Assembly (NCBI GenBank): GCA_026993355.1
Contig: JALWTX010000013.1
Coordinates: 62,001-126,000 of the forward strand
Reading direction: 5' to 3'
Length of the DNA: 64,000 nt
Source: Flavobacteriales bacterium
GTDB lineage: Bacteria; Bacteroidota; Bacteroidia; Flavobacteriales; Flavobacteriaceae
In this document: piece after piece, positions 30,454 to 44,994 of the stretch
How the letters are laid out: the number at the start of each line of letters is the position of its first letter
How positions within the stretch are numbered: the stretch's first letter is position 1
Made by a program: the position numbers and the translations under genes
The notes under the pieces: generated by a model
The model's input: only the letters and a program-made list of their open reading frames with translations
Database searches by the model: none
Told to the model about the DNA's origin: nothing

Positions 30454-30651
30454 ATGTTAAGAAACATCAAAGATTATTTGGCGAGTCATCCGGGATTAAA
30501 CTTTTTTGACGTTTTTCCTATTATACTTTTCACATTCATTTTCATTTTTGTGATAGTATATACTTTTGGCTTACCAAAAAGACATATTGATGAATTAAAA
30601 GAATTTCCCCTTAACGACCAAAACGATTTAGATTATGGCAAAAAAGAATGA
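30454..30651 (+). CDS. ccoQ: Cbb3 oxidase small subunit CcoQ
   Basis: The 65-residue protein has a single membrane span (about residues 18-42) and a polar C-terminal tail containing LPKRHIDELKEFPLND. CcoQ/FixQ stabilises the interaction of CcoP with the CcoNO core. It starts 2 bases after the ccoNO stop and its end overlaps ccoP by 17 bases, so it lies in the same operon and is probably translationally coupled. Confidence 0.85.
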   Translation: MLRNIKDYLASHPGLNFFDVFPIILFTFIFIFVIVYTFGLPKRHIDELKEFPLNDQNDLDYGKKE

Positions 30652-31255
30652 ATCTGCTTTTGACAGACTATTAAAAAAGTTAACAAAAGCAACCCCTATA
30701 GAAGAAGAAAGTTCCGTTAAATTAGACCATGATTTTGACGGTATTCAAGAACTTAATAATCCGTTGCCACCCTGGTGGACAGCCGGTTTTATTATCACCA
30801 TTATTTTATCTGTATTTTATATCTTTTATTATATGGTGCAAGGTAAAGACAGTCAGTATGTCGAGTATCAGCGTGAAGTAGCACGTGCCAAAGCACAAGT
30901 AGATGCTTATAAAAAAGCACATCATATTGTTGATGCAAATACGGTAACGGTTTTAACTGATAAAAAGTCTTTAGAAGAAGGTAAAGAAATCTATCTGAAA
31001 AATTGTGCGGCTTGTCATGTTGCCGATGGTGGTGGTTTGGTTGGTCCTAATTTGACAGATGACTATTGGATTTATGGTTGTGACATCAAATCAATTTTTA
31101 ATGTCATTACCAATGGAACCAGCAAAGGCATGCCGCCATGGAAAGCCTTAGGTGCTGACAAAATACAAAAGGTTGCCAGTTATGTTTTGTCTTTGCATGG
31201 TACTAAGCCGGCCAAACCTAAAGCCCCGCAAGGTAAACCTTGCAAACGTGGTTAA
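30635..31255 (+). CDS. ccoP: Cbb3 oxidase subunit CcoP with a single heme c site
   Basis: The 206-residue protein has a cytoplasmic N-terminal part containing LDHDFDGIQELNNPLPPWW, the family hallmark. One membrane span follows (about residues 49-69), then a periplasmic cytochrome c domain. Only one CxxCH site is present (CAACH, near residue 126), with an axial-Met candidate in SKGMPPWKAL. Classical CcoP has two heme c domains and about 300 residues, so this is the short mono-heme form. A hairpin follows the gene. Confidence 0.9.
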   Translation: MAKKNESAFDRLLKKLTKATPIEEESSVKLDHDFDGIQELNNPLPPWWTAGFIITIILSVFYIFYYMVQGKDSQYVEYQREVARAKAQVDAYKKAHHIVDANTVTVLTDKKSLEEGKEIYLKNCAACHVADGGGLVGPNLTDDYWIYGCDIKSIFNVITNGTSKGMPPWKALGADKIQKVASYVLSLHGTKPAKPKAPQGKPCKRG

Positions 31256-31277
31256 AATAAATATAATTGACTTAAAT

Positions 31278-31303
31278 AAAGCAGTTTGAAATCAAACTGC
31301 TTT
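31278..31303 (+). terminator. Hairpin between ccoP and ccoG
   Basis: A perfect 10-bp stem (aaagcagttt/aaactgcttt) with a 6-base loop is followed by attttgattt. It separates the oxidase structural genes from the assembly genes ccoG and ccoH. Confidence 0.7.
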
Positions 31304-31328
31304 ATTTTGATTTAAAAAATTATTTAAA

Positions 31329-32747
31329 ATGAATACAAATAACCAAGAATCATTTAGAGATCATATAGGAACTATTAATGAAGAAGGATTACGAAATTGG
31401 ATACACCCAAAAAAACCACATGGTCGTTTTTATACGCGAAGGACTATTTTAAGTATTATTTTACTGACTTTATTTATAATTGGCCCTTTTATTAAGGTGA
31501 ATGGCGAACAATTTATGTTGTTTGACATTTTAGGAAGAAGATTTCACATTTTCGGAAAACCCTTTTTCCCTCAAGATTTTTATTTATTGGCATTGGCAGC
31601 TGTCATTGCTCTGATTTTCTTAGTTTTATTTACGGTTGTTTATGGCCGGATTTTTTGTGGTTGGCTATGTCCACAAACCATTTTTATGGAAATGCTTTTC
31701 CGTAAAATTGAATATTTCTTTGAAGGCGACCGGCCAAAACAAATCAAATTGGATAGAATGCCTTGGAACGCCGAAAAAATTAGAAAGCGCGGACTAAAAT
31801 GGGTGGTATTTTATTTAGTTTCTTTAGGCATTACCAGTGTTATGTTGGCCTACGTGGCCGGTTCGGATTATGTGATTAATTTTTGGAAACATCCTTTTGC
31901 TGATGTTAAAGCTTGGATTATTTATTTGGCTTTTACCACTGTATTTTATTTTGTTTTTGCCTGGTTTAGAGAGCAAGTTTGTATTATTGCTTGTCCTTAT
32001 GGCCGGCTTCAAGGTGTATTAACCGACGAAAACACTATTATGGTGGCTTATGATTATAAACGGGGTGAAAAACGCGGGCCTATGCGTAAAGGACAAGACC
32101 GTGAAGCCTTGGGCTTGGGTGATTGTATTGATTGTAAACAATGCGTATTGGTTTGTCCCACCGGTATAGATATACGTAATGGAACACAATTGGAATGTAT
32201 CAATTGTACCGCTTGTATGGATGCCTGCGATGCTACAATGGATGCTATTGGTAAACCACGTGGTTTAATCCGTTACGCCTCAAAAGTAAGTATTGAAGAA
32301 GGTCATAGTAAAATTTTTACCCCACGGGTCAAATTTTACACGGTTGTTTTAGTAGCTTTGTTAAGTGCTTTTATTTATTTGTTTGCGCATCGTCCCGATG
32401 TCCAATTAAAAGTTTTACGCACACGGGGACAGGTATTTACGGAGTTGCCAAATGGTAAAATACAAAATATGTATCAAGCCACTATTGTCAATAAAAGTAC
32501 TCATGCTTATAAAGGTTTAAAAATTAAGTTGATAGATCCCAAAGATGGCGAAGTAACTGTTTCCGGTAGTAATAGTGGTACCGGAAGTGGCCTTGATTTA
32601 AAGAAAGAAGAAATAAAACAGGTCATAATTTTTATTGATTTTCCTAAAAATAAATTTCATGGTAAGCATAAAATAAAATTAGGTATTTATGACAAAAATA
32701 AGCTTTTAGATAGCTATAAAACCGTATTTATTGCACCTGTTAGATAA
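31329..32747 (+). CDS. ccoG: Cytochrome c oxidase accessory protein CcoG
   Basis: The 472-residue polytopic membrane protein carries two [4Fe-4S] ferredoxin motifs (C266, C269, C272, C276 and C290, C293, C296, C300) and the membrane CxxxCP pairs CGWLCP (110-115) and CIIACP (218-223). A C-terminal immunoglobulin-like periplasmic domain covers about residues 355-472. CcoG reduces copper for cbb3 oxidase assembly. It stands between two hairpins, so it may be partly uncoupled from ccoNOQP. Confidence 0.93.
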   Translation: MNTNNQESFRDHIGTINEEGLRNWIHPKKPHGRFYTRRTILSIILLTLFIIGPFIKVNGEQFMLFDILGRRFHIFGKPFFPQDFYLLALAAVIALIFLVLFTVVYGRIFCGWLCPQTIFMEMLFRKIEYFFEGDRPKQIKLDRMPWNAEKIRKRGLKWVVFYLVSLGITSVMLAYVAGSDYVINFWKHPFADVKAWIIYLAFTTVFYFVFAWFREQVCIIACPYGRLQGVLTDENTIMVAYDYKRGEKRGPMRKGQDREALGLGDCIDCKQCVLVCPTGIDIRNGTQLECINCTACMDACDATMDAIGKPRGLIRYASKVSIEEGHSKIFTPRVKFYTVVLVALLSAFIYLFAHRPDVQLKVLRTRGQVFTELPNGKIQNMYQATIVNKSTHAYKGLKIKLIDPKDGEVTVSGSNSGTGSGLDLKKEEIKQVIIFIDFPKNKFHGKHKIKLGIYDKNKLLDSYKTVFIAPVR

Positions 32748-34119: not shown

Positions 34120-35235
34120 ATGCAATTTTTAGTATCAAGCGATGAATTAATAAAAAATCTTCAGGCATTACGTAATGTCATTAATAATAATAATACCATT
34201 CCGGTTTTAGATAATTTTTTATTTGAACTAAATAATAATTCTTTAAAAATAACCGCTTCTGACTTAGAGACAACCATGACAGCAACTGTTGCGGTAGAAT
34301 CTAATGACACCGGGAAATTTTTGTTGCCGGCACGCATGCTTGTTGATACCATTAAGGCATTACCTGTACAACCCTTAACTTTTATGTTTAATGACAATAA
34401 TACCATGAATATTGTCAGTGAAACAGGAAAATACAGTTTTGCCTATGCGGATGCGGCCGATTATCCTAATCCGGTGGAAATGGAAGAAGCCGCCCAAATT
34501 TCTATACCTTCAGGTGTTTTGGCCGATGCTGTCAGTAAAACGATCTTTGCAACCAGTAACGATGAATTGCGTCCAACCATGACAGGCGTCTTATTTGAAT
34601 TTTCGCCTCAAGGCTTAAATTTTGTGGCTACAGATGCTCATAAGTTGGTTAAATATGAACGCAATGATCTGAAAGCCGATGCCGAAACCCAATTTATCGT
34701 ACCCAAAAAACCTCTGCAAATTCTAAAAAATTATATTGCAGGGTCAAATGACGAAGTGCAAATAACTTATGATGACAGGAATGTAAAATTTAATTTTGAT
34801 AATATTCAGTTATTATCACGATTGATAAATGGGCAATATCCCAATTATCGTGCGGTAATTCCAACCGATAATCCCAATGTTTTGATTGCTGACCGGCAAA
34901 ACCTGTTAAATGTAGTCAAACGGATTGCTATTTTTGCCAATAAGGCGACCCATTTAATCCGTTTAGATATTACGGGTGCTGAACTGAAAGTATCTGCAGA
35001 AGATTTGGATTTTTCAAATAGAGCAGAAGAAAGGATGACTGCTAATTATCAAGGTGATGATATGTCCATTGGTTTCAATTCCAAATTTTTGGTCGAAATG
35101 TTGTCCAATTTAGATTCGGATGAAGTGTCGCTTAACATGTCCGGCCCCAGCAAAGCTGCTTTAATTCATCCTATGGACGGTTTGGAAGAAGGTGAATTTG
35201 TAACCATGTTGGTCATGCCTTTGATGTTGAGTTAA
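34120..35235 (+). CDS. dnaN: DNA polymerase III beta sliding clamp
   Basis: The 371-residue protein forms the ring clamp that tethers DnaE to DNA. It starts MQFLVSSDELIKNLQAL and has three clamp domains; the ending FVTMLVMPLMLS is canonical. The ATG at 34120 is chosen over a TTG at 34096 because it gives the conserved start. A TACATTTG -7-like element at 34091-34098 lies at a suitable distance. The dnaA gene is not adjacent. waaA starts 11 bases downstream. Confidence 0.95.
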   Translation: MQFLVSSDELIKNLQALRNVINNNNTIPVLDNFLFELNNNSLKITASDLETTMTATVAVESNDTGKFLLPARMLVDTIKALPVQPLTFMFNDNNTMNIVSETGKYSFAYADAADYPNPVEMEEAAQISIPSGVLADAVSKTIFATSNDELRPTMTGVLFEFSPQGLNFVATDAHKLVKYERNDLKADAETQFIVPKKPLQILKNYIAGSNDEVQITYDDRNVKFNFDNIQLLSRLINGQYPNYRAVIPTDNPNVLIADRQNLLNVVKRIAIFANKATHLIRLDITGAELKVSAEDLDFSNRAEERMTANYQGDDMSIGFNSKFLVEMLSNLDSDEVSLNMSGPSKAALIHPMDGLEEGEFVTMLVMPLMLS

Positions 35236-35246
35236 GACGGCATATC

Positions 35247-36482
35247 ATGCAATATTTGTACAATATAATACTTTATATTTCCGAAAATTTGTTGAAAGTT
35301 TTCGGAAATTTTTTTGGTGCAAAGGTTCGACAATTCAAAAACGGCCAATCTGAGGTATGGCAAAAACTATCAAAATGTAAAAATCTCGATCAACCTGTTA
35401 TTTGGGTGCATGTGTCGTCTTTAGGTGAATATGAACAAGCTCTACCGGTTATCGAATCCTTAAAATCCGCGAAAAAAAAATATGCTATCCTTTTAAGCTT
35501 TTTTTCGCCATCGGGCTATGAAATTATTAAAAATAATTCTCCTGCTGATTGCACGGTTTATTTACCTTTGGATACGACGGATAATGCCAAAAAATTTGTA
35601 GAACTGGTAAAGCCTCAAATGGCTATTTTTGTCAAATATGATTTGTGGCCAAATTACTTACGGCAATTACAAATCCATAAAATTTCGGTTTTTCTCATTT
35701 CGGCTACATTCAATAAAAAACATCCCTTTTTAAAATATAACTGGCTCCGAAAAATCTTACATAATTTTGCTCATATATTTGTACAAGATCAGACGTCTCA
35801 AAACATTTTGAATGGTCATGGCATTCAGCAAGTCACACTGGCCGGCGATACCCGTTTTGACCGGGTTTTTCAGTTAGTTCAAAATAATAAAAACTTATCA
35901 TTTGTGCATCGATTCAAAGCAGGAAAGCCACTTTTGGTGGCCGGTAGTACGTGGCCAAAGGATGAAGAACTACTGATAAAATACATTAATCAAACTAATT
36001 TCCCTTTTAAAACAATTTTGGCACCTCATGAAATAAATGAGACGCATATTCAGCAAATAGTTAAGCAATTACAAGTGCCTTACATATTGTATTCCGATAT
36101 CGATGAAAATACCAATCTGGAAGATTTTAAAGTGATGATTTTGAATACAATTGGTGTATTAAAATATATTTATGCCTATGCTGATGTGGTTTATATTGGC
36201 AATGGTTTCGGTAAAAGTATTCATAATGTGCAAGAACCGGCTGTTTATGGGGTCCCTATTATTACAGGGCCACATATCCATCAGTTTGAAGAGGCCAAAG
36301 CTTTAAAAAAGTTAGGGGCATTAATGACGATAGAATCCGGACAAGATTTAAGCCAAACTTTAGATAGCTTGTGGCAAAACCCGCAACTTCGTCAAGAAAA
36401 GGCTCAATTGACTAAAAATTATGTGTCAAGCAACCTGGGAGCGACCCAAAAAATCATAAATCACCTCAAGAAATATTTATGA
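35247..36482 (+). CDS. waaA: 3-deoxy-D-manno-octulosonic acid transferase WaaA
   Basis: WaaA (KdtA, GT30) adds Kdo to lipid IVA at the inner membrane. The 411-residue protein has an N-terminal membrane-binding helix, the catalytic Glu in WVHVSSLGEYEQALP (E61), LLVAGSTWPKDEE at the start of the second Rossmann domain, and NGFGKSIHNVQEPAVYG near the CMP-Kdo site. It lies downstream of dnaN and overlaps the next gene by 4 bases (ATGA), so the two are translationally coupled. Confidence 0.93.
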   Translation: MQYLYNIILYISENLLKVFGNFFGAKVRQFKNGQSEVWQKLSKCKNLDQPVIWVHVSSLGEYEQALPVIESLKSAKKKYAILLSFFSPSGYEIIKNNSPADCTVYLPLDTTDNAKKFVELVKPQMAIFVKYDLWPNYLRQLQIHKISVFLISATFNKKHPFLKYNWLRKILHNFAHIFVQDQTSQNILNGHGIQQVTLAGDTRFDRVFQLVQNNKNLSFVHRFKAGKPLLVAGSTWPKDEELLIKYINQTNFPFKTILAPHEINETHIQQIVKQLQVPYILYSDIDENTNLEDFKVMILNTIGVLKYIYAYADVVYIGNGFGKSIHNVQEPAVYGVPIITGPHIHQFEEAKALKKLGALMTIESGQDLSQTLDSLWQNPQLRQEKAQLTKNYVSSNLGATQKIINHLKKYL

Positions 36483-36952
36483 CCAGTTTATATTTGCATG
36501 GTTTAAACAGTACCAATATAAATGATAGAACCGATTGGCTATCACAATTTGGTCGTGTAATTAATCCGTTGATGGCCTATCAAAATTTACCCGCTGATTA
36601 TGGTAAATTAGAAAAATTGATAAAAAAATATCATCCGGATGTCATTGTAGGCAGTAGCATGGGCGGTTATTTTGGCTTTCATTTGGCTAATTATTTTGGC
36701 TTGCCTACCGTTTTATTTAACCCGGCTTTAATTATGACAACTATTATAAAGCCAAACCTTAAGCCAATGGCCATTTGTGGTTTTCATCATATTAGTTTAG
36801 GCAATAATGATAAGGTTATTCCACCGTTAACGACGAAATACTTATTAAATTATTGGCAGGTGCCACACCAAATTTATCCGGTAGACTTGGGCCACGAAAC
36901 ACCTATTGAAATATTTACCTCCGTGTGTCAAAAAACCGGTTTATTCAGATAA
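36479..36952 (+). CDS. YqiA-like alpha/beta hydrolase
   Basis: The 157-residue protein starts SLYLHGLNST and has the nucleophile elbow GSSMGG (serine near residue 60). The short alpha/beta hydrolase fold ends with a histidine in LGHETP. This matches the YqiA/YcfP-type (UPF0227) esterases. The natural substrate is unknown. It overlaps waaA by 4 bases. A terminator follows at once. Confidence 0.8.
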   Translation: MTSLYLHGLNSTNINDRTDWLSQFGRVINPLMAYQNLPADYGKLEKLIKKYHPDVIVGSSMGGYFGFHLANYFGLPTVLFNPALIMTTIIKPNLKPMAICGFHHISLGNNDKVIPPLTTKYLLNYWQVPHQIYPVDLGHETPIEIFTSVCQKTGLFR

Positions 36953-36976
36953 AAAACCGCCCAAAATGAGCGGTTT
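36952..36976. terminator. Terminator between the YqiA-like gene and maeB
   Basis: The stem aaaccgc/gcggttt with a 9-base loop lies between the convergent genes. The T run is better on the minus strand (for maeB) but the hairpin can serve both. Confidence 0.7.
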
Positions 36977-37005
36977 CTATTAGGTTAATCCAAGTTTTCT
37001 AAGGA

Positions 37006-39318
37006 CTATTGTTCTACTTTAATCAAGGCTTTTTTCTTGGCTTTATTCCGTTTTTCTTGCATTTGTGCATCAATAACAGCTACAACTGTCATATTGACGA
37101 TTTCATCGGCTGTAGAACCGAGTTGTATAATATGTACCGGTTTATTCATTCCCATTAAAATTGGCCCTACCATTTGTGCACCCGTTAACTCTTTGATCAT
37201 TCTGTAAGAAATATTTGAGGCATCGAGGTTAGGAAAAATAAGTGTGTTGATCTTTTTGTTGACCAAGGTTGAAAATGGAAAAGTTTCTTTTAAGAGTTTT
37301 TTATTTAAAGCAAAATCAGCTTGCATTTCTCCGTCAATGGTCAAATTTGGATATTTTTCTTTGAGAATTTCGGTTGCCTTTTTCATTTTTTGGGCATCAG
37401 GATGTTTAGATGAACCAAAGTTTGAATAGGATAGTAAAGCAATATTAGGTTTTAAACGGAATATTTTCAGCACATCTTTCATCATGGAAGCCATATTGAC
37501 GATATCATTAACATCCGGATTGATGACGATAGATGAGTCGGTAAAAAATAAAGGGCCTTTTTTGGTGATGAGTAGCGTGGTAGCAAAAACTTTGTCAACA
37601 TTGGGTCTTTTGCCAATGACTTGAATCATGGGTTTGAAAATCGTTTTAAAACTACGCGAATAACCCGAAATTATGGCATCAGCCTGTCCTGTTTCGACCA
37701 TCATGGCGCCAAAATAATTTCGATTTCGCATAAGTTTTCGCGCCTCCAGAAGGGTAATGCCTTTACGCTGATTTCTTTCCCAGAACCGGTTAGCAAAATC
37801 TTCCACCATTTCATTGGCTTCGGATGAAATTATATCGATTATCGGAAGATCTTCAACATAGTCCAATTCCTTTTTAAGCTCTTCAATAGTTTCCTTATTC
37901 CCTAATAAAATCGGTTTGGCAATGCCTTCTTCATGGGCAATATAAGCCGCTTTTAATACTTCCGGCAAATCGGCTTCCGGGTAAACTACTGTTTTCGGAT
38001 CCTTTTTGGCCTGGTTGGTAATCATCCTGATTTGTTTACTTTCAATGCCTAAACGTTCGATGAGTTCTTCTTCATATTTTTTAAAATCCTCAATGGGTTT
38101 TCTGGCAACACCGCTGTCCATTGCTGCTTTGGCTATAGCCGGTGGAATTTTGTAAATCAACCGGGGGTCAAAAGGTTTGGGTATAATATATTCTCTACCG
38201 AAAGCCAAATGTTTTTCTTGGTAAGCGGCATTGACTTGTTCCGGAACAGATTCTTTAGCCAATTCGGCCAGCGCATATACGGCAGCCAGTTTCATTTGTT
38301 CATTAATGGCTTTGGCACGAACATCTAAAGCACCACGGAAAATAAATGGGAAACCCAACACATTGTTAACTTGGTTGGGATAATCTGACCGGCCTGTGGC
38401 CATTATAATGTCTTTTCTTACTTTGGTTGCAAAATTATAATCTACTTCCGGTGTCGGGTTGGCCAACGCAAACACAATAGGATTTGGGGCCATAGACTTT
38501 AAATGCTTTTCATTTAAGATATTGCCGACAGATAAACCGACAAACACATCGGCATTTATCATGGCTTCATCTAAAGTGTGAATATCTCTGTCGGTCGCAA
38601 AAAGTTTTTTTTGTGCCGATAAGTTTTCACGGTCGCTTCTGATAACACCTTTGCTGTCAAGCATGACAATATTTTCTTTTTTGACACCCAAAGATTGGTA
38701 TAATTTGGTGCAAGATACAGCTGCAGCGCCGGCACCATTGATGACAATTTTAATGTCTGATAGTTTTTTTCCGGCCAGTTCAACGGCATTGAGCAAGGCT
38801 GCTGACGAAATAATAGCAGTGCCGTGTTGGTCATCATGCATCACCGGAATGTCTAATTCTTTTATTAAGCGTTCTTCAATTTCAAAAGCCTCGGGCGCTT
38901 TAATGTCTTCTAAATTAATGCCGCCAAAAGTTGGCGCAATATTTTTAACGGTTTCGATAAATGCATCAATATTTTCGGTATCGACTTCGATATCGAAAAC
39001 GTCAATGTCAGCAAATATTTTAAAGAGTAAACCTTTACCTTCCATAACCGGTTTGCCGGCTTCGGCACCTATATTTCCTAAGCCTAATACAGCCGTACCA
39101 TTGGATATGACAGCAACGAGATTGCCTTTATTGGTGTAATTGTAAACATCATCCGGATTTGCATGTATTTCCATACAAGGGATCGCGACCCCCGGTGAGT
39201 AAGCCAAGGATAAATCCCTTTGGGTAGAATGTTTTTTAGTAGGAACTACCTCAATTTTTCCCGGGCGTGGCTCCATATGATATTTTAATGCTTCTTTTCT
39301 GAGTCTTTTTTCTTTCAT
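37006..39318 (-). CDS. maeB: NADP-type malic enzyme with phosphotransacetylase-like domain (MaeB)
   Basis: This 770-residue protein decarboxylates malate to pyruvate with NAD(P) reduction. The malic enzyme part (about residues 1-430) has LAYSPGVAIPC, GNLVAVISNGTAVLGLGNIG and the nucleotide-binding VINGAGAAAVSC. The C-terminal 340 residues form a phosphotransacetylase-like domain (ISGYSRSFKT and GPILMGMNKPVHI), which in this enzyme class is regulatory and not catalytic. The gene is divergent from etfBA across a 300-base spacer. Confidence 0.94.
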   Translation of the reverse strand: MKEKRLRKEALKYHMEPRPGKIEVVPTKKHSTQRDLSLAYSPGVAIPCMEIHANPDDVYNYTNKGNLVAVISNGTAVLGLGNIGAEAGKPVMEGKGLLFKIFADIDVFDIEVDTENIDAFIETVKNIAPTFGGINLEDIKAPEAFEIEERLIKELDIPVMHDDQHGTAIISSAALLNAVELAGKKLSDIKIVINGAGAAAVSCTKLYQSLGVKKENIVMLDSKGVIRSDRENLSAQKKLFATDRDIHTLDEAMINADVFVGLSVGNILNEKHLKSMAPNPIVFALANPTPEVDYNFATKVRKDIIMATGRSDYPNQVNNVLGFPFIFRGALDVRAKAINEQMKLAAVYALAELAKESVPEQVNAAYQEKHLAFGREYIIPKPFDPRLIYKIPPAIAKAAMDSGVARKPIEDFKKYEEELIERLGIESKQIRMITNQAKKDPKTVVYPEADLPEVLKAAYIAHEEGIAKPILLGNKETIEELKKELDYVEDLPIIDIISSEANEMVEDFANRFWERNQRKGITLLEARKLMRNRNYFGAMMVETGQADAIISGYSRSFKTIFKPMIQVIGKRPNVDKVFATTLLITKKGPLFFTDSSIVINPDVNDIVNMASMMKDVLKIFRLKPNIALLSYSNFGSSKHPDAQKMKKATEILKEKYPNLTIDGEMQADFALNKKLLKETFPFSTLVNKKINTLIFPNLDASNISYRMIKELTGAQMVGPILMGMNKPVHIIQLGSTADEIVNMTVVAVIDAQMQEKRNKAKKKALIKVEQ

Positions 39319-39618
39319 TTTATTAACTTTTAGCCTAAGCTTTGGTTTTCTATATGCAAATTTAAGGGCTATCGCTTATAAAAAAATGTAAAATGTTCTT
39401 TTTTTTAAAATTATTTTGAGTTGCCGTAAAGGAATTTATTTTTTTGGAATATATGCCATTTATATTGAATATAAAATTAAAAACAAACGCCAAAACTGAT
39501 AATTTTTTAATTTTACAAAAAATTTATTATGCGTGCATAATAAATTCAAAATAAAATTGTAAATTCGTATCGATTAAAATTCAGGGTTTATTCCATTAAA
39601 AATCAAAAAAATAAGCAT
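39319..39618. promoter_or_regulatory. Divergent control region of maeB and etfBA
   Basis: This 300-base AT-rich spacer has no gene. TAAATTTG on the minus strand (39364-39357) is a -7-like element for maeB. A perfect palindrome sits at 39521-39546, about 70 bases before the etfB ATG. No other clear structure was seen. Confidence 0.6.
39521..39546. promoter_or_regulatory. Perfect 12-2-12 palindrome, probable operator of etfBA
   Basis: The half-site aatttattatgc is repeated exactly in inverted orientation around a GT centre, giving a core TTATGC-N2-GCATAA. The size and symmetry are those of a site for a dimeric repressor (TetR-type or similar). It lies upstream of the etfB promoter region and no T run follows, so a terminator is unlikely. 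The cognate regulator is not in the window. Confidence 0.6.
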
Positions 39619-40371
39619 ATGAAAATATTATTTTTAATGAGCAGTGTTCCCGACACTACTTCAAAAATTAACTTTACAGACAATGATACTAAATTTGATG
39701 AATCGGGAATTCAGTTTGTCATTAATCCACATGATGAGTTTGGCTTAACCAAAGCAGTTCAAATTAAAGAAAAAAACGGTGCCGAAATCACAGTATTAAA
39801 TGTAGGTACGGCAAAAACAGAGCCTGTTATCAGAAAAGTTTTAGCCATTGGTGCCGATAAAGCTGTACGAATAGATGCCGAACCACTTGACTCATATTTT
39901 ACGGCGGTGCAAATAGCTGATTACATCAAAAAACACAATGATTTTGATTTAATTATTGCCGGAAAAGAGTCTTTGGATTATAATGGCGCCATGGTGCATG
40001 GTTTGGTAGCCGGTATGACCGGTTTAAAATTTGTGAACGCGGTGATGGGGTTAGAACTCAAAGATGACAAAACAGTGGAGGTAGCCCGTGAAATAGATGG
40101 CGGAAAAGAATACATCGAAACAACTTTGCCGTTAATTATAGGCGGACAGAAAGGTTTGGTTAAAGAAGAAGAATTGCGTATTCCGAACATGCGTGGTATA
40201 ATGATGGCGCGTAAAAAACCTTTAGAAGTACTTCCTCCGGTTGATGCTCCTGTTCGTACCAAAATCGATAAATATGAAAAGCCGGCTCCGAAAGGTGCTA
40301 TTAAATTAGTCGATAAAGATAACCTGGATGAACTAATTGATTTGTTACACAACGAAGCGAAGGTTATTTAA
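39619..40371 (+). CDS. etfB: Electron transfer flavoprotein beta subunit
   Basis: The 250-residue protein binds AMP and forms the ETF heterodimer that takes electrons from acyl-CoA dehydrogenases. The start MKILFLMSSVPDTTSKI, the INPHDEFGLTKAVQI segment and the C-terminal MRGIMMARKKPLEV fit the EtfB family. It is followed 28 bases later by etfA. A palindrome upstream suggests repression, perhaps lifted when fatty acids are used (inference). Confidence 0.94.
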   Translation: MKILFLMSSVPDTTSKINFTDNDTKFDESGIQFVINPHDEFGLTKAVQIKEKNGAEITVLNVGTAKTEPVIRKVLAIGADKAVRIDAEPLDSYFTAVQIADYIKKHNDFDLIIAGKESLDYNGAMVHGLVAGMTGLKFVNAVMGLELKDDKTVEVAREIDGGKEYIETTLPLIIGGQKGLVKEEELRIPNMRGIMMARKKPLEVLPPVDAPVRTKIDKYEKPAPKGAIKLVDKDNLDELIDLLHNEAKVI

Positions 40372-40399
40372 TTTAATGTTTAACTAAAAAATTATTATT

Positions 40400-41365
40400 A
40401 TGTATATCTTAATATATGCAGAATCACAAAATGGAAAAGTTGCTAAGAGTGCTAAAGAATTAGCTTCTTATGCTAAAGCTTATGCCGATAAAACAGGACA
40501 AGAAGTATTTGCTGTAGGTGCAGGTCTTGAAGATGCCGGTGAATTGTTTAAATATGGTGTGAATAAAGTTTTGACGGTCGAAAATGAGACTTTGAAACAA
40601 TTTAATGCTTTTGCACATGCACAAATGGTAGCCGATGCTGCCAAAAAAAACGACGCAAATTTGGTGTTAATTAGTTCCAGTAATGATGCGGTTTATATGG
40701 GACCTGTGTTGGCAGACTTGTTAGATGCAGGTTATGTTTCTCAAGTTATTTCATTGCCCGAAGAAAGTGATACTTTTATAGTGAAACGCAAAGTCTTTTC
40801 TAATAAAGGAATTGCCTACACAGAAGTTTTAACGGATAATAAATTATTGCGCATTGCCAAAAACTCTTTTGAGGTTATAGAAAAACCGGTAGAAGGTACT
40901 CTTGAAAAATTTGAGCCTGAAGTCGATTTAAGTGTTTATGATGAATATAAAGTTGTTAAAGTAGATAAGGCTACAGGTAAAATTTCTTTATCGGATGCCG
41001 ATATTGTTGTCTCTGCCGGACGTGGCTTAAAAGGCCCTGAAAATTGGGGAATGATAGAAGAATTAGCCGATGTTTTAGGGGCGGCCACGGCTTGTTCTAA
41101 GCCTGTTGCCGACTTGGGCTGGCGTCCACATCAAGAGCACGTGGGGCAAACAGGTAAACAAATTGCGCCTAACCTGTACATTGCCGTAGGTATATCCGGC
41201 GCTATACAACATTTGGCAGGAGTAAACGGGTCCAAAAATATGGTTGTTATTAATAATGATCCGGAAGCGCCTTTCTTCAAAGCAGCCGATTATGGTGTTG
41301 TTGGTGATGCTTTTGAAGTGGTTCCCAAACTAATTGAAAAAATAAAAGCTTTTAAAAAGCAGTAG
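40400..41365 (+). CDS. etfA: Electron transfer flavoprotein alpha subunit
   Basis: The 321-residue partner of EtfB binds FAD. The C-terminal FAD domain has [14 protein letters not shown], then [16 protein letters not shown], then [15 protein letters not shown] and [19 protein letters not shown], all standard. The heterodimer passes electrons from acyl-CoA dehydrogenases to ETF-quinone oxidoreductase. The operon ends at a strong hairpin. Confidence 0.95.
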
Positions 41366-41383
41366 ATATTGTTTTTAATCTTG

Positions 41384-41413
41384 AAAAAGCTGCCTCTTAA
41401 AGGTAGCTTTTTT
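41384..41413. terminator. Terminator between etfA and the LytTR regulator gene
   Basis: An 11- to 12-bp stem (aaaaagctgcct/aggtagcttttt) with one G-T pair and a 5-base loop has T runs on both strands. It serves the convergent ends of both genes. Confidence 0.8.
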
Positions 41414-42165
41414 TATGAAATATTAAGTGCTGTAAAAATATTTTTACGATGACTGCGCGAAATCGGAATAATTTTTTCATTGCTCAAAATCAATTCTCCC
41501 GAACCTTGTTTTATAAGGCCTTTGATTTCATTTAAATTAACAATATAGGATTTATGAATACGTAAGAAAACCGTATCAGGTAATAACTCTTCAATATGTT
41601 TAATATTTTTAGAAACAACGTGCTCATCTCCATTACGCATAAAAATAGTGGTATAGCTGCCATCAGATTTGCAATAGAGAATATCTTCATAATCGACTAA
41701 GATAATTTTATTGCTTAAACCTAAAGGTATTTTTTTTGTTTTTTGCAAGTTGTCTTTGACCAAATTGTTCAAAACAGTTTCAATATTTTTAGTGGAAGTT
41801 TGCGAAGTTTGTCTGTTTTTAATTTTCTCTATGGCTTGTGTTAAATCATCAGGATCAATGGGTTTTAACAAATAGTCAATGGCATTGGCTTTAAAGGCCT
41901 GTATGGCGTATTGATTATAGGCAGTGGTTATAATCAAATCAAAGTTTTTGTAATCTAATAATTGTAACAACTGAAAACCATCAATTTCAGGCATTTCTAT
42001 ATCCAAAAAAACCAAATCGGGTTTTAAATAATTAATTCCGCTAATGGCATCTTTCGGATTGGTAAAAGATTCTATAACCTTTACTTCTTGGCTAAAATTT
42101 TCAATCTCCCATTGCAAACTTTCAATGGCGAGTTGTTCATCATCAATTATAATTGCTTTGATCAT
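41413..42165 (-). CDS. LytTR-type response regulator without adjacent kinase
   Basis: The 250-residue protein has an N-terminal receiver domain (acidic D8/D9, phospho-acceptor D55 in FLDIEMPEIDG, K102-type lysine in DYLLKPID) and a C-terminal LytTR DNA-binding domain (about residues 150-250: ILYCKSDGSYTTIF, then FLRIHKSYIVNL). Partners are usually LytS-like (His_kinase) membrane proteins, but none is nearby. It is divergent from the surface-protein cluster that starts at 42532, with 366 bases between, so it may control that cluster. Confidence 0.9.
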   Translation of the reverse strand: MIKAIIIDDEQLAIESLQWEIENFSQEVKVIESFTNPKDAISGINYLKPDLVFLDIEMPEIDGFQLLQLLDYKNFDLIITTAYNQYAIQAFKANAIDYLLKPIDPDDLTQAIEKIKNRQTSQTSTKNIETVLNNLVKDNLQKTKKIPLGLSNKIILVDYEDILYCKSDGSYTTIFMRNGDEHVVSKNIKHIEELLPDTVFLRIHKSYIVNLNEIKGLIKQGSGELILSNEKIIPISRSHRKNIFTALNIS

Positions 42166-42531
42166 ATTCTGACAAATTTTTTTACTGATATAAATTTAAG
42201 AAAATTTTAGATATATACCTTGTCTTTTTGTTGAATATACAAATATGATTCAAGAACAGTCAATTTTAGGTTATGAAAAAACTTTCTTTTATGAAATAAA
42301 TCCGGACCATTTATAACAGTTATAATTTTTTTTTAGACTTATCTATATTTCTACAGGTTAATTAAAGTAAACCGAATCTAATTTTGATTTCATTTAATTT
42401 TTTCATTAAAAAATAGTTAGATAGTCAAATTAACCCTTTCGGGTGGTAAGAATTCATCCTTTAAAATGAGATTAAAATAAGCTTGTCAGTGTAATTTTGT
42501 TGTAGAAAATAAATTTTAAAAATACTTTCTA
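42166..42531. other. Divergent intergenic region ahead of the surface-protein cluster
   Basis: The 366 bases are AT-rich and hold no credible gene. TAATTTTG at 42492-42499 is a -7-like element 33 bases before the ATG at 42532, without a good TTG partner. A tiny hairpin accctttcgggt lies at 42433-42444. I found no convincing pair of LytTR direct repeats. Confidence 0.5.
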
Positions 42532-44994
42532 ATGAAAAAAATTATTTACTTATTTACATTCCTATTTGGAATATCCTCTTTTGCTCAAGGCGTACTTTGG
42601 CAAGAAGATTTTGAAGGAAATACAATCCCAAGCGATTGGACAACTTGGGGAAGTGGAGGAACATCAGAATGGTCTTTTGGAACCGGAGACTTTCCTTGGC
42701 ATGATGCAACAGACTGGAATTTTGATAACAATGCCGCAATTTTTAGCGACTATACCTCAGACGAAGATAGCCATAATATAAGAATTTTAGCAAGAACAGA
42801 ACAAGGAGTGGATGCTTCTAACTTCACTAATTTAAAATTAGAATTCTATGCATCTTTAAGAACATCCGGTTCTTATGGTAACGGCGAATTAATTGTATTG
42901 GTTTTTGATCAAAGTACTAATTCGTGGCGGCATATGGCCACCTACACTTCCGATGTAATTACGGCAGATATAGTTTTAGATTTAGAAGCCTATATGAATA
43001 CTTATCCCGGAATTGACCGTTCCGATTTAAGAGTTGGATTTAAATACGACGATTTAAACCATGGCATTACCTACGGAGCAGGAATTGCTTGGGTAAAAAT
43101 AACCGGAAATCCGATTAATGATACCTGTAGCAATGCAACACAAGTTACTTTGTCAAACGAACAAGGTACTTCTTTGCACAATCAAACTCTTTTAGGGACA
43201 TCCAATAATAATGGCGGTGTAGATGCTTGTAACAATGGTACTTATGATGGCGTTTGGTACACTTTTACGCCAACACACAGTTGGGGAATGAAAATTTTTA
43301 CCAGTAGCATACTTGCAGATAACTTAGAAGTTTATACCGGTTCTTGTGGAAATTTGTCTTGTGTCGATATAACAAAATCTGAGAATGGGCCTTACAGTTC
43401 AATTTATGAATTAGATGTTATTGCCGGTACGCAGTATTGGGTTAATGTCAGTAAATATGGTTTTTCACAAAGTGATTATAATACCTATGATGATACTTTT
43501 AACTTATCGTTTTTTTATAATCATCCAAGAAACGATGATAGAACACATCCGGAGATTATTAATCATTTTCCATACTCCAATACTCAATCCATTGATGGGA
43601 CGACTAATAATGATGATACAGCTACAAACGGATTTGTGACTATTTGTGCTCCGGGAATGAACGATGGCGTTTGGTACGATTTTTATGCACCTGCTGATGG
43701 GGAAATAAATATTGAGGCTATAGCCGGTCAAGTAGATTTGGAAATAGGCTTATACGAATTGAACGATCCAAATGAATTATCAGATTTTAGCAATTATTCT
43801 TGTGTGGGCAGTGCGGATAGTCACGGCTCAGGTAATGGCGAACTTTTAACAGCTCAAGTAACGGGAGGAAAACACTATATGATCAATCTAGGTGATTATT
43901 CCAGTACGGCAAATCATATTGAGGAGGGTAATTTATCTTTAAATGTATATTATTCTGCACCGGCTAATAATAATTGCAGTCAAGCTCAAGAATTAAATCT
44001 CAATCAAACTGTGCAAGGCTCGACGGCAGGTGCAGATGCCAGTATTACAACTTGTGGAAATACCGTAAATGATTTAGGGGTTTGGTATCATTTTGTATCA
44101 ACATATGGTGGAATGGTAAGTATTGATGTCGCTGATACAAATCATAGCGCAAATGTGGCAGTCCTGACGGGTGATTGTGCGAATTTAACCTGTGATTTTA
44201 ATATTCAAGATTATAATCCTTATGCAGAATTTGAAACCCAAATAGGAGCAGCCTATTATATTTATGTATCTACCGATGATGATGAAATTACAAATTTTAG
44301 TTTGACAATAAACGGAATTCCTCCTCAAAACGATGAGGCCTCAGGGGCCATAGAAATACCGGTAAATGGCATTGGTGTAACTTGCACCAACCCTACAATA
44401 GTTTGGAATGCAAATGGTGTAACCGATTCTTCTCCTATAAACGGCACACCTTCTTGTGGTAATTATGCCGGAGGCGATTCTTGGTATAAATTTGTTGCAC
44501 CAAATTCAGGTGGAATAAAAATTAACAGACCAAATGATGGAGATTGGGGCGCTTTGGGTTATGCCATTTATGATTCAGAAACAAGTAGCTCAACTTTAAC
44601 TTGTGGGGTGATAGCACAAGGAGTTACTTCAAGTGGCAATATTACCGGTTTAACACCTAATAATTATTATTGGCTGCGGTTGTGGGAATGGAATAATAAT
44701 GATTTTGGTTCTGTAGGTATTTGTTTGCAAGAAGTTACGACCGCAAGCACTGAAGATTTGTCCCTATTTAATGTGGAATTTTATCCTAATCCGATTGAAA
44801 ACATCTTGCATATACGATCAGATGAACCGATGGATAATATTAAAATATTTTCTTTATTAGGACAACAAGTTTATCAAAAAGAAATTGATAATACTGAAGA
44901 TAATATTGAATTGTCCGGATTAGCACCGGGTATTTATTATTTAAAAATACAAGTTGATCATCAATCTGGCATATATAAAATTGTAAAACAATAA
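42532..44994 (+). CDS. Large T9SS-exported surface protein with four PPC-like repeats
   Basis: The 820-residue protein has a signal peptide (cleavage after SSFAQ). A jelly-roll-like domain covers about residues 20-190. Four divergent beta-sandwich repeats of about 130 residues follow, each with a cysteine pair and a GVWY or DSWY-F motif (NDGVWYDFYAP, DLGVWYHFVS, GGDSWYKFVAP). The last 80 residues are a type A T9SS sorting domain (FYPNPIENILHI, then LAPGIYYLKIQ). Binding of polysaccharide or cell partners is typical for such repeats, but no catalytic site is visible. It is first in a run of secreted proteins. Confidence 0.82.
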   Translation: MKKIIYLFTFLFGISSFAQGVLWQEDFEGNTIPSDWTTWGSGGTSEWSFGTGDFPWHDATDWNFDNNAAIFSDYTSDEDSHNIRILARTEQGVDASNFTNLKLEFYASLRTSGSYGNGELIVLVFDQSTNSWRHMATYTSDVITADIVLDLEAYMNTYPGIDRSDLRVGFKYDDLNHGITYGAGIAWVKITGNPINDTCSNATQVTLSNEQGTSLHNQTLLGTSNNNGGVDACNNGTYDGVWYTFTPTHSWGMKIFTSSILADNLEVYTGSCGNLSCVDITKSENGPYSSIYELDVIAGTQYWVNVSKYGFSQSDYNTYDDTFNLSFFYNHPRNDDRTHPEIINHFPYSNTQSIDGTTNNDDTATNGFVTICAPGMNDGVWYDFYAPADGEINIEAIAGQVDLEIGLYELNDPNELSDFSNYSCVGSADSHGSGNGELLTAQVTGGKHYMINLGDYSSTANHIEEGNLSLNVYYSAPANNNCSQAQELNLNQTVQGSTAGADASITTCGNTVNDLGVWYHFVSTYGGMVSIDVADTNHSANVAVLTGDCANLTCDFNIQDYNPYAEFETQIGAAYYIYVSTDDDEITNFSLTINGIPPQNDEASGAIEIPVNGIGVTCTNPTIVWNANGVTDSSPINGTPSCGNYAGGDSWYKFVAPNSGGIKINRPNDGDWGALGYAIYDSETSSSTLTCGVIAQGVTSSGNITGLTPNNYYWLRLWEWNNNDFGSVGICLQEVTTASTEDLSLFNVEFYPNPIENILHIRSDEPMDNIKIFSLLGQQVYQKEIDNTEDNIELSGLAPGIYYLKIQVDHQSGIYKIVKQ

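Follow-up and report, generated by a model that had tools for sequence, protein, structure and literature searches.

A palindrome in the maeB/etfB spacer

Within the window, the stretch of 64,000 nucleotides of flavobacterial DNA that was analysed as a whole, a malic enzyme gene and the two genes of an electron transfer flavoprotein (ETF) face away from each other across a 300-bp spacer, with start codons at 39318 (maeB, minus strand) and 39619 (etfB, plus strand). The spacer houses a perfect palindrome that can be read directly as AATTTATTATGC (39521-39532), GT (39533-39534) and GCATAATAAATT (39535-39546). All 12 pairs of its arms match, and the next outer pair, A at 39520 and C at 39547, is mismatched. 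An initial annotation had described a perfect 26-bp palindrome with 12-bp half-sites around GT, which was right to the base. The features of the locus are as follows.

37006-39318, minus strand: maeB-like malic enzyme fused to a phosphotransacetylase-like domain, the divergent neighbour (Pfam malic, Malic_M and PTA_PTB)
39521-39546, no strand: putative operator palindrome AATTTATTATGC-GT-GCATAATAAATT (direct reading, chance tests, family conservation)
39526-39541: conserved 16-bp core AYTATGCRYGCATART of the palindrome
39560-39567, plus strand: predicted -7 box of etfBA, TAAATTCG, 34 bases after the core start (fits the etfB box of relatives at +33 to +37 and TAnnTTTG, PMC9723704)
39619-40371, plus strand: etfB, electron transfer flavoprotein beta subunit (Pfam ETF, 94.3 bits)
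40400-41365, plus strand: etfA, electron transfer flavoprotein alpha subunit (Pfam ETF_alpha, 117.5 bits)

The 22-mer TTTATTATGCNNGCATAATAAA occurs a single time in the window, even with up to three mismatches allowed, and is absent from 100 dinucleotide shuffles. Perfect palindromes with arms of at least 12 and a spacer of 0-4 stand at two places in the window, 39521-39546 and the terminator-like 31277-31304, and none arose in 40 first-order Markov simulations. Because the shuffles and the simulations both came out empty, a chance origin of the palindrome at 39521-39546 is excluded. The second palindrome, TAAAGCAGTTTGA-AA-TCAAACTGCTTTA followed by TTTTG, has a cytochrome-c-like gene (30635-31255) on one side and a ccoG-like gene (31329-32747) on the other, both named by reading their sequences, and resembles the hairpin of a terminator or attenuator.

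The initial annotation had also stated that no regulator gene is nearby. This holds for the open reading frames listed at 35000-44500, apart from one behind etfA (41413-42165, minus strand) whose sequence reads as that of a putative LytTR-type response regulator. On the other side of the palindrome, maeB was considered as a regulon member and set aside, its start being 209 bp away from the operator.

Exact copies in the source genome and a MarR-family gene

The motif TTATGC-N2-GCATAA has three exact copies in the 2.2-Mb source genome, versus one for a reversed control pattern.

Copy 1, contig C13: upstream of etfBA, the palindrome in the window
Copy 2, C22:112013 (L016:8014): 53 bp, counted from the core start, before a 145-aa MarR-family gene
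Copy 3, C22:116276 (L016:12277): in the gap between a thiolase gene and a fadE-type acyl-CoA dehydrogenase gene
marR, the 145-aa regulator, G000:C22:112066-112500: heads marR-fadB-fadA, which fadE follows closely

Downstream of marR follow a gene of the fadB type (3-hydroxyacyl-CoA dehydrogenase/enoyl-CoA hydratase) and one of the fadA type (thiolase). The site is shared by several unlinked pathway genes, etfBA on C13 and marR-fadBA plus fadE on C22, and one of its three exact copies stands at a regulator gene, marR. Judged by the genes behind them, the three exact sites are predicted to serve one pathway, made up of acyl-CoA dehydrogenase, ETF and the remaining beta-oxidation enzymes. Joint control of fadE and etfBA would be sensible because acyl-CoA dehydrogenase hands electrons to ETF.

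Two ideas of the initial annotation gained support here: an operator-like palindrome with a distant regulator, given that marR on contig C22 has the site in its own promoter, and a fatty-acid or acyl-CoA regulon, given that the other two exact copies precede marR-fadB-fadA and an acyl-CoA dehydrogenase gene. The whole-genome scan for the core that it had proposed returned an acyl-CoA dehydrogenase gene and the thiolase-containing marR-fadB-fadA operon but no TetR gene behind any of the three exact sites. Its suggestion of a TetR-family repressor does not stand, as the regulator gene that has the site in its own promoter, and that is lost together with the site, encodes a protein of the MarR family (Pfam MarR PF01047, 38.7 bits versus a cut-off of 24.6; MarR_2 and HTH_27 are also above cut-off).

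The predicted structure of the regulator is a MarR fold (pLDDT 92.5), for which the structure matches include DNA-bound MepR (4lln_D, Z 16.5, rmsd 2.0 over 137 residues), SlyA, FabT and CouR. None of the named NCBIfam MarR equivalogs (BilQ, HpaR, SlyA, OhrR, TcaR and others) was reached, the best score being 40.4 bits versus a cut-off of 125. A shared fold by itself shows no function for the regulator.

With the core loosened to two mismatches, the source genome yielded 184 matches versus 134 for the control, so its weak sites are mostly chance. A one-mismatch intergenic copy, TTATGCATGCATAG at L018:4950 (genome C2:45949), lies 60 bp upstream of a BioF/Kbl/serine-palmitoyltransferase-like gene and may be a real fourth site.

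Conservation and further targets in relatives

Conservation was examined in 60 Flavobacteriaceae genomes, one per genus, by scoring upstream DNA at the 14 defined positions of AYTATGC-N2-GCATART, with sites at marR counted from 12/14 upwards. A MarR ortholog is present in 55 of the 60 genomes (45-59% identity, the source genome's own being 100%) and EtfB in 59. Every one of the 55 orthologs has the site upstream of marR. Upstream of etfB, the site occurs in 51 of the 55 genomes with marR versus none of the four without it (Fisher p = 1.5e-4, genomes being treated as independent despite their kinship); this table comprises 59 genomes, as G015 has neither a detected marR nor a detected etfB. The etfB site is missing from four genomes with marR (G020, G033, G041 and G052), and G015, which is 84% complete, contains an exact site with marR not found. 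These counts indicate that the site is lost together with the regulator gene. The initial annotation had set two outcomes against its own reading, a site solitary in the genome and a lack of conservation upstream of etfB in relatives; the two further exact copies and the 51 of 55 etfB promoters are what was found.

The strict pattern AYTATGCRYGCATART matched 138 sites in 53 of the 60 genomes, and its reversed control matched one. In a separate search, from which the best 80 of 587 named loci were taken, these being related to one another, the site is present in 78 of the 78 with enough upstream DNA, including loci from Flavobacterium, Aquimarina, Kordia, Salegentibacter, Aequorivita and F. psychrophilum (L216). 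The gene order marR-fadB-fadA-fadE is found in 74 of these best 80, and the separate fadE operator of the source genome is also present in two close relatives (L152 and L153). One comparison of family orthologs used 29 of the 30 that were fetched, L041 being set aside for an in-frame stop.

Searching 296 genomes of the phylum gave 54 orthologs above 110 bits, whereas the scores of ordinary MarR proteins stayed below 48 bits. The 54 all belong to the same class, 30 of them to the Flavobacteriaceae and 24 to other families, where 20 of the 24 ortholog places were fetched. The site upstream of marR is accompanied by fadB downstream in 16 of these 20 distant cases, and the remaining four, which have no site, also have no adjoining fadB. 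Sites scoring 11/14 at distant orthologs are weaker singly than as a set, because about 3% of control windows (42/1318) score at least 11/14.

The recognition helices of the four site-less orthologs look much like the others. Whole-genome counts with a looser core in genomes of such orthologs were 9/9 versus 2/1 for the reversed control in G318, and 10/5 versus 4/5, a weak excess, in G271. Some of the sites in G318 and G271 stand before acyl-CoA dehydrogenase, thiolase and CoA-transferase-like genes and others before genes with no evident link, a picture that fits a regulon retained while the regulator gene moved. Furthermore, G306, from the distant family f10, has sites before etfBA and before acyl-CoA dehydrogenase and thiolase-like genes, and G154, a genome of the same order, has one before etfBA. 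Overall, the predicted switch appears widely shared among flavobacteria and their relatives. Separately, at least five places on several contigs of G247 (f10) match GTATGC(AA/TT)GCATA, which may be another family of palindromic sites.

Among the 138 strict-pattern sites, the 75 listed were classified as 27 upstream of marR, 21 upstream of etfB and 27 elsewhere. All 27 of the last kind were fetched, glmS and the group members being named by sequence resemblance with one protein per group searched. A FabK/nitronate-monooxygenase-like gene follows or adjoins 11 of them (L124-L126, L131, L134-L137, L140, L141 and L143), and nine are flanked by glmS and a TonB-dependent receptor gene (L122, L123, L128, L132, L133, L138, L139, L142 and L146). 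Some of the glmS/TonB-receptor loci continue with a gene for a GDSL-lipase-like lipoprotein, and the nine loci are candidates for a fatty-acid or lipid uptake system. The other seven are single cases that include a GDSL-lipase-like lipoprotein gene, a KAS III-like gene (L145), a carboxyltransferase/enoyl-CoA hydratase/thiolase-like operon (L147 being the carboxyltransferase gene) and two unknown genes. Sites away from fatty-acid genes also occur, at the single cases of pyruvate carboxylase (L130) and a subtilase-like gene (L127) and at a short unknown gene beside L124. In Aquimarina, seven loci have the site before a FadD-like acyl-CoA ligase gene (of these loci, two were opened, and one protein was searched).

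Not all of these targets extend to the source genome. Its ortholog of the TonB receptor (53% identity, L336) shows no site within the 500 bp inspected (best 9/14), and a close homolog of the FabK/nitronate-monooxygenase-like protein was not found there (best 33%). For these reasons, both targets of relatives appear to lie outside the regulon here.

Promoter geometry and the proposed switch

In flavobacteria, sigma-A promoters contain a -7 box of the form TAnnTTTG, located at -12 to -5 (PMC9723704), and the -7 boxes behind the operators fit this consensus. Relative to the first base of the 16-bp core, the box begins at +25/26 in 52 of 55 marR promoters, with no clear box there in the other three, and a related TAnnTTYG-like box is found at +33 to +37 in 49 of 51 etfB promoters. 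A clear -33 TTTG was not seen in the promoters examined. The box at +25/26 puts the marR operator core between the -33 and -7 elements, where it spans about -37 to -22. For etfBA in the window, the predicted transcription start is near 39572 and the core extends from about -46 to -31, over the -33 region. The etfB core thus sits about one helical turn further upstream than the marR core, with its centre at about -37.5 to -41.5; shifted by a full turn, a bound protein would stay on the same face of the DNA. Two tandem operators are present in one marR promoter at L051, L052, L053, L060 and L061, and this points to binding that is cooperative, or to control that is tighter, in some genera.

We consider it very probable that the palindrome serves as operator for a MarR-family repressor that controls fatty-acid beta-oxidation as well as its own gene. 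A MarR dimer would bind TTTAYTATGC-RY-GCATARTAAA with one half-site per wing-helix domain and, when fatty acids are absent, would block RNA polymerase at marR-fadBA, fadE and etfBA; the operator position at marR and that at etfB would each allow this. A fatty-acid-derived ligand, most likely an acyl-CoA, would then free MarR from the operator. We infer that the 145-aa MarR protein binds the site, that it represses instead of activating, and what its ligand is; that the ligand is a CoA thioester is a guess, made because of pathway logic and the precedent of CouR.

The geometry at etfB is where a different mode of action might be sought. There, the operator centre falls in a region often occupied by activators in contact with RNA polymerase, and it does so consistently, about 10 bp further upstream than at marR (49/51 versus 52/55 promoters). 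The same protein might therefore activate etfBA while repressing its own gene, a reading that we regard as unlikely, since the operator at etfB still covers the -33 region and the marR and etfB positions share a helix face and fit occlusion.

Less likely again is that some other regulator, a TetR protein for example, binds the site and that marR is merely one of its targets. A regulator gene can itself be a regulon member, MarR binding is our own deduction, and G015 has the site without a detected marR. The association of site and gene is nevertheless tight, as all 55 marR genes have the site, the four fairly complete genomes with etfB and without marR have no etfB site, and marR is the only regulator gene behind a site among the named open reading frames of the annotated loci. 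A perfect inverted repeat in AT-rich DNA could also be a transcription terminator, an RNA element or a chance repeat, but this has a negligible probability: the palindrome occupies a divergent spacer, where it precedes both genes and follows neither, its 2-base loop could not close a hairpin, its sequence and place upstream of both marR and etfB are kept beyond mere complementarity, and chance fails against the shuffles and simulations.

A repressor released by fatty-acid derivatives predicts derepression of beta-oxidation genes, and the rise of these genes with fish mucus and plasma in F. psychrophilum (PMC9723704), a species whose locus carries the site, agrees with that prediction. The regulon is a ready candidate explanation for this response, and the main text of PMC9723704 contains neither 'MarR' nor 'palindrom'. 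In a literature search covering mainly the open literature, we found no published account of the regulon, although a description may exist, and no described regulator of flavobacterial fatty-acid breakdown; the motif strings, searched as text, led to one unrelated paper only.

Flavobacteria and their relatives play a major part in breaking down organic matter, and there are fish pathogens among them. With one named protein, a site of 16 bp and a constant promoter geometry to work from, control of fatty-acid breakdown in these bacteria becomes directly testable. The broader proposition, to which we give rather better than even chances, is that lipid catabolism in the class Bacteroidia has a single MarR protein as its ancestral master switch. 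The reach of this protein would include uptake (the TonB receptor and the GDSL lipase-like lipoprotein, in some genera), activation by FadD, beta-oxidation, ETF and the FabK/nitronate-monooxygenase-like enzyme, with operators set by helical turns from the -7 box and a regulon re-wired when marR left fadB in one family. Such a switch would play the role that the unrelated FadR and PsrA have in Proteobacteria.

MarR repressors whose own promoter contains an operator are an ordinary kind of system; the specific regulon is well conserved and precise, and is not described in the literature found. The MarR repressors CouR and those of the BadR type act through palindromic operators in the local control of a catabolic pathway for CoA thioesters. 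CouR, with structures in complex with p-coumaroyl-CoA (PDB 5cyv) and with DNA (6c2s), shares the MarR fold (5cyv_B, Z 14.9) at 18% identity. These systems deal with aromatic acids, whereas the predicted pathway here is general fatty-acid beta-oxidation together with ETF, and sequence identity is low. FabT of Streptococcus pneumoniae (PDB 6jbx), a MarR-family regulator of fatty-acid metabolism, likewise has the same fold (Z 14.8, 15% identity). FabT controls fatty-acid synthesis; the three exact sites here stand at beta-oxidation and ETF genes and none at a synthesis gene, while the KAS III-like gene (L145) and the carboxyltransferase gene (L147) have sites in single relatives. Elsewhere, FadR of the GntR family, and PsrA and other regulators of the TetR family, release beta-oxidation genes when fatty acids are present. 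This is the same job as the one proposed here, performed by unrelated protein families, whereas the flavobacterial regulator belongs to the MarR family.
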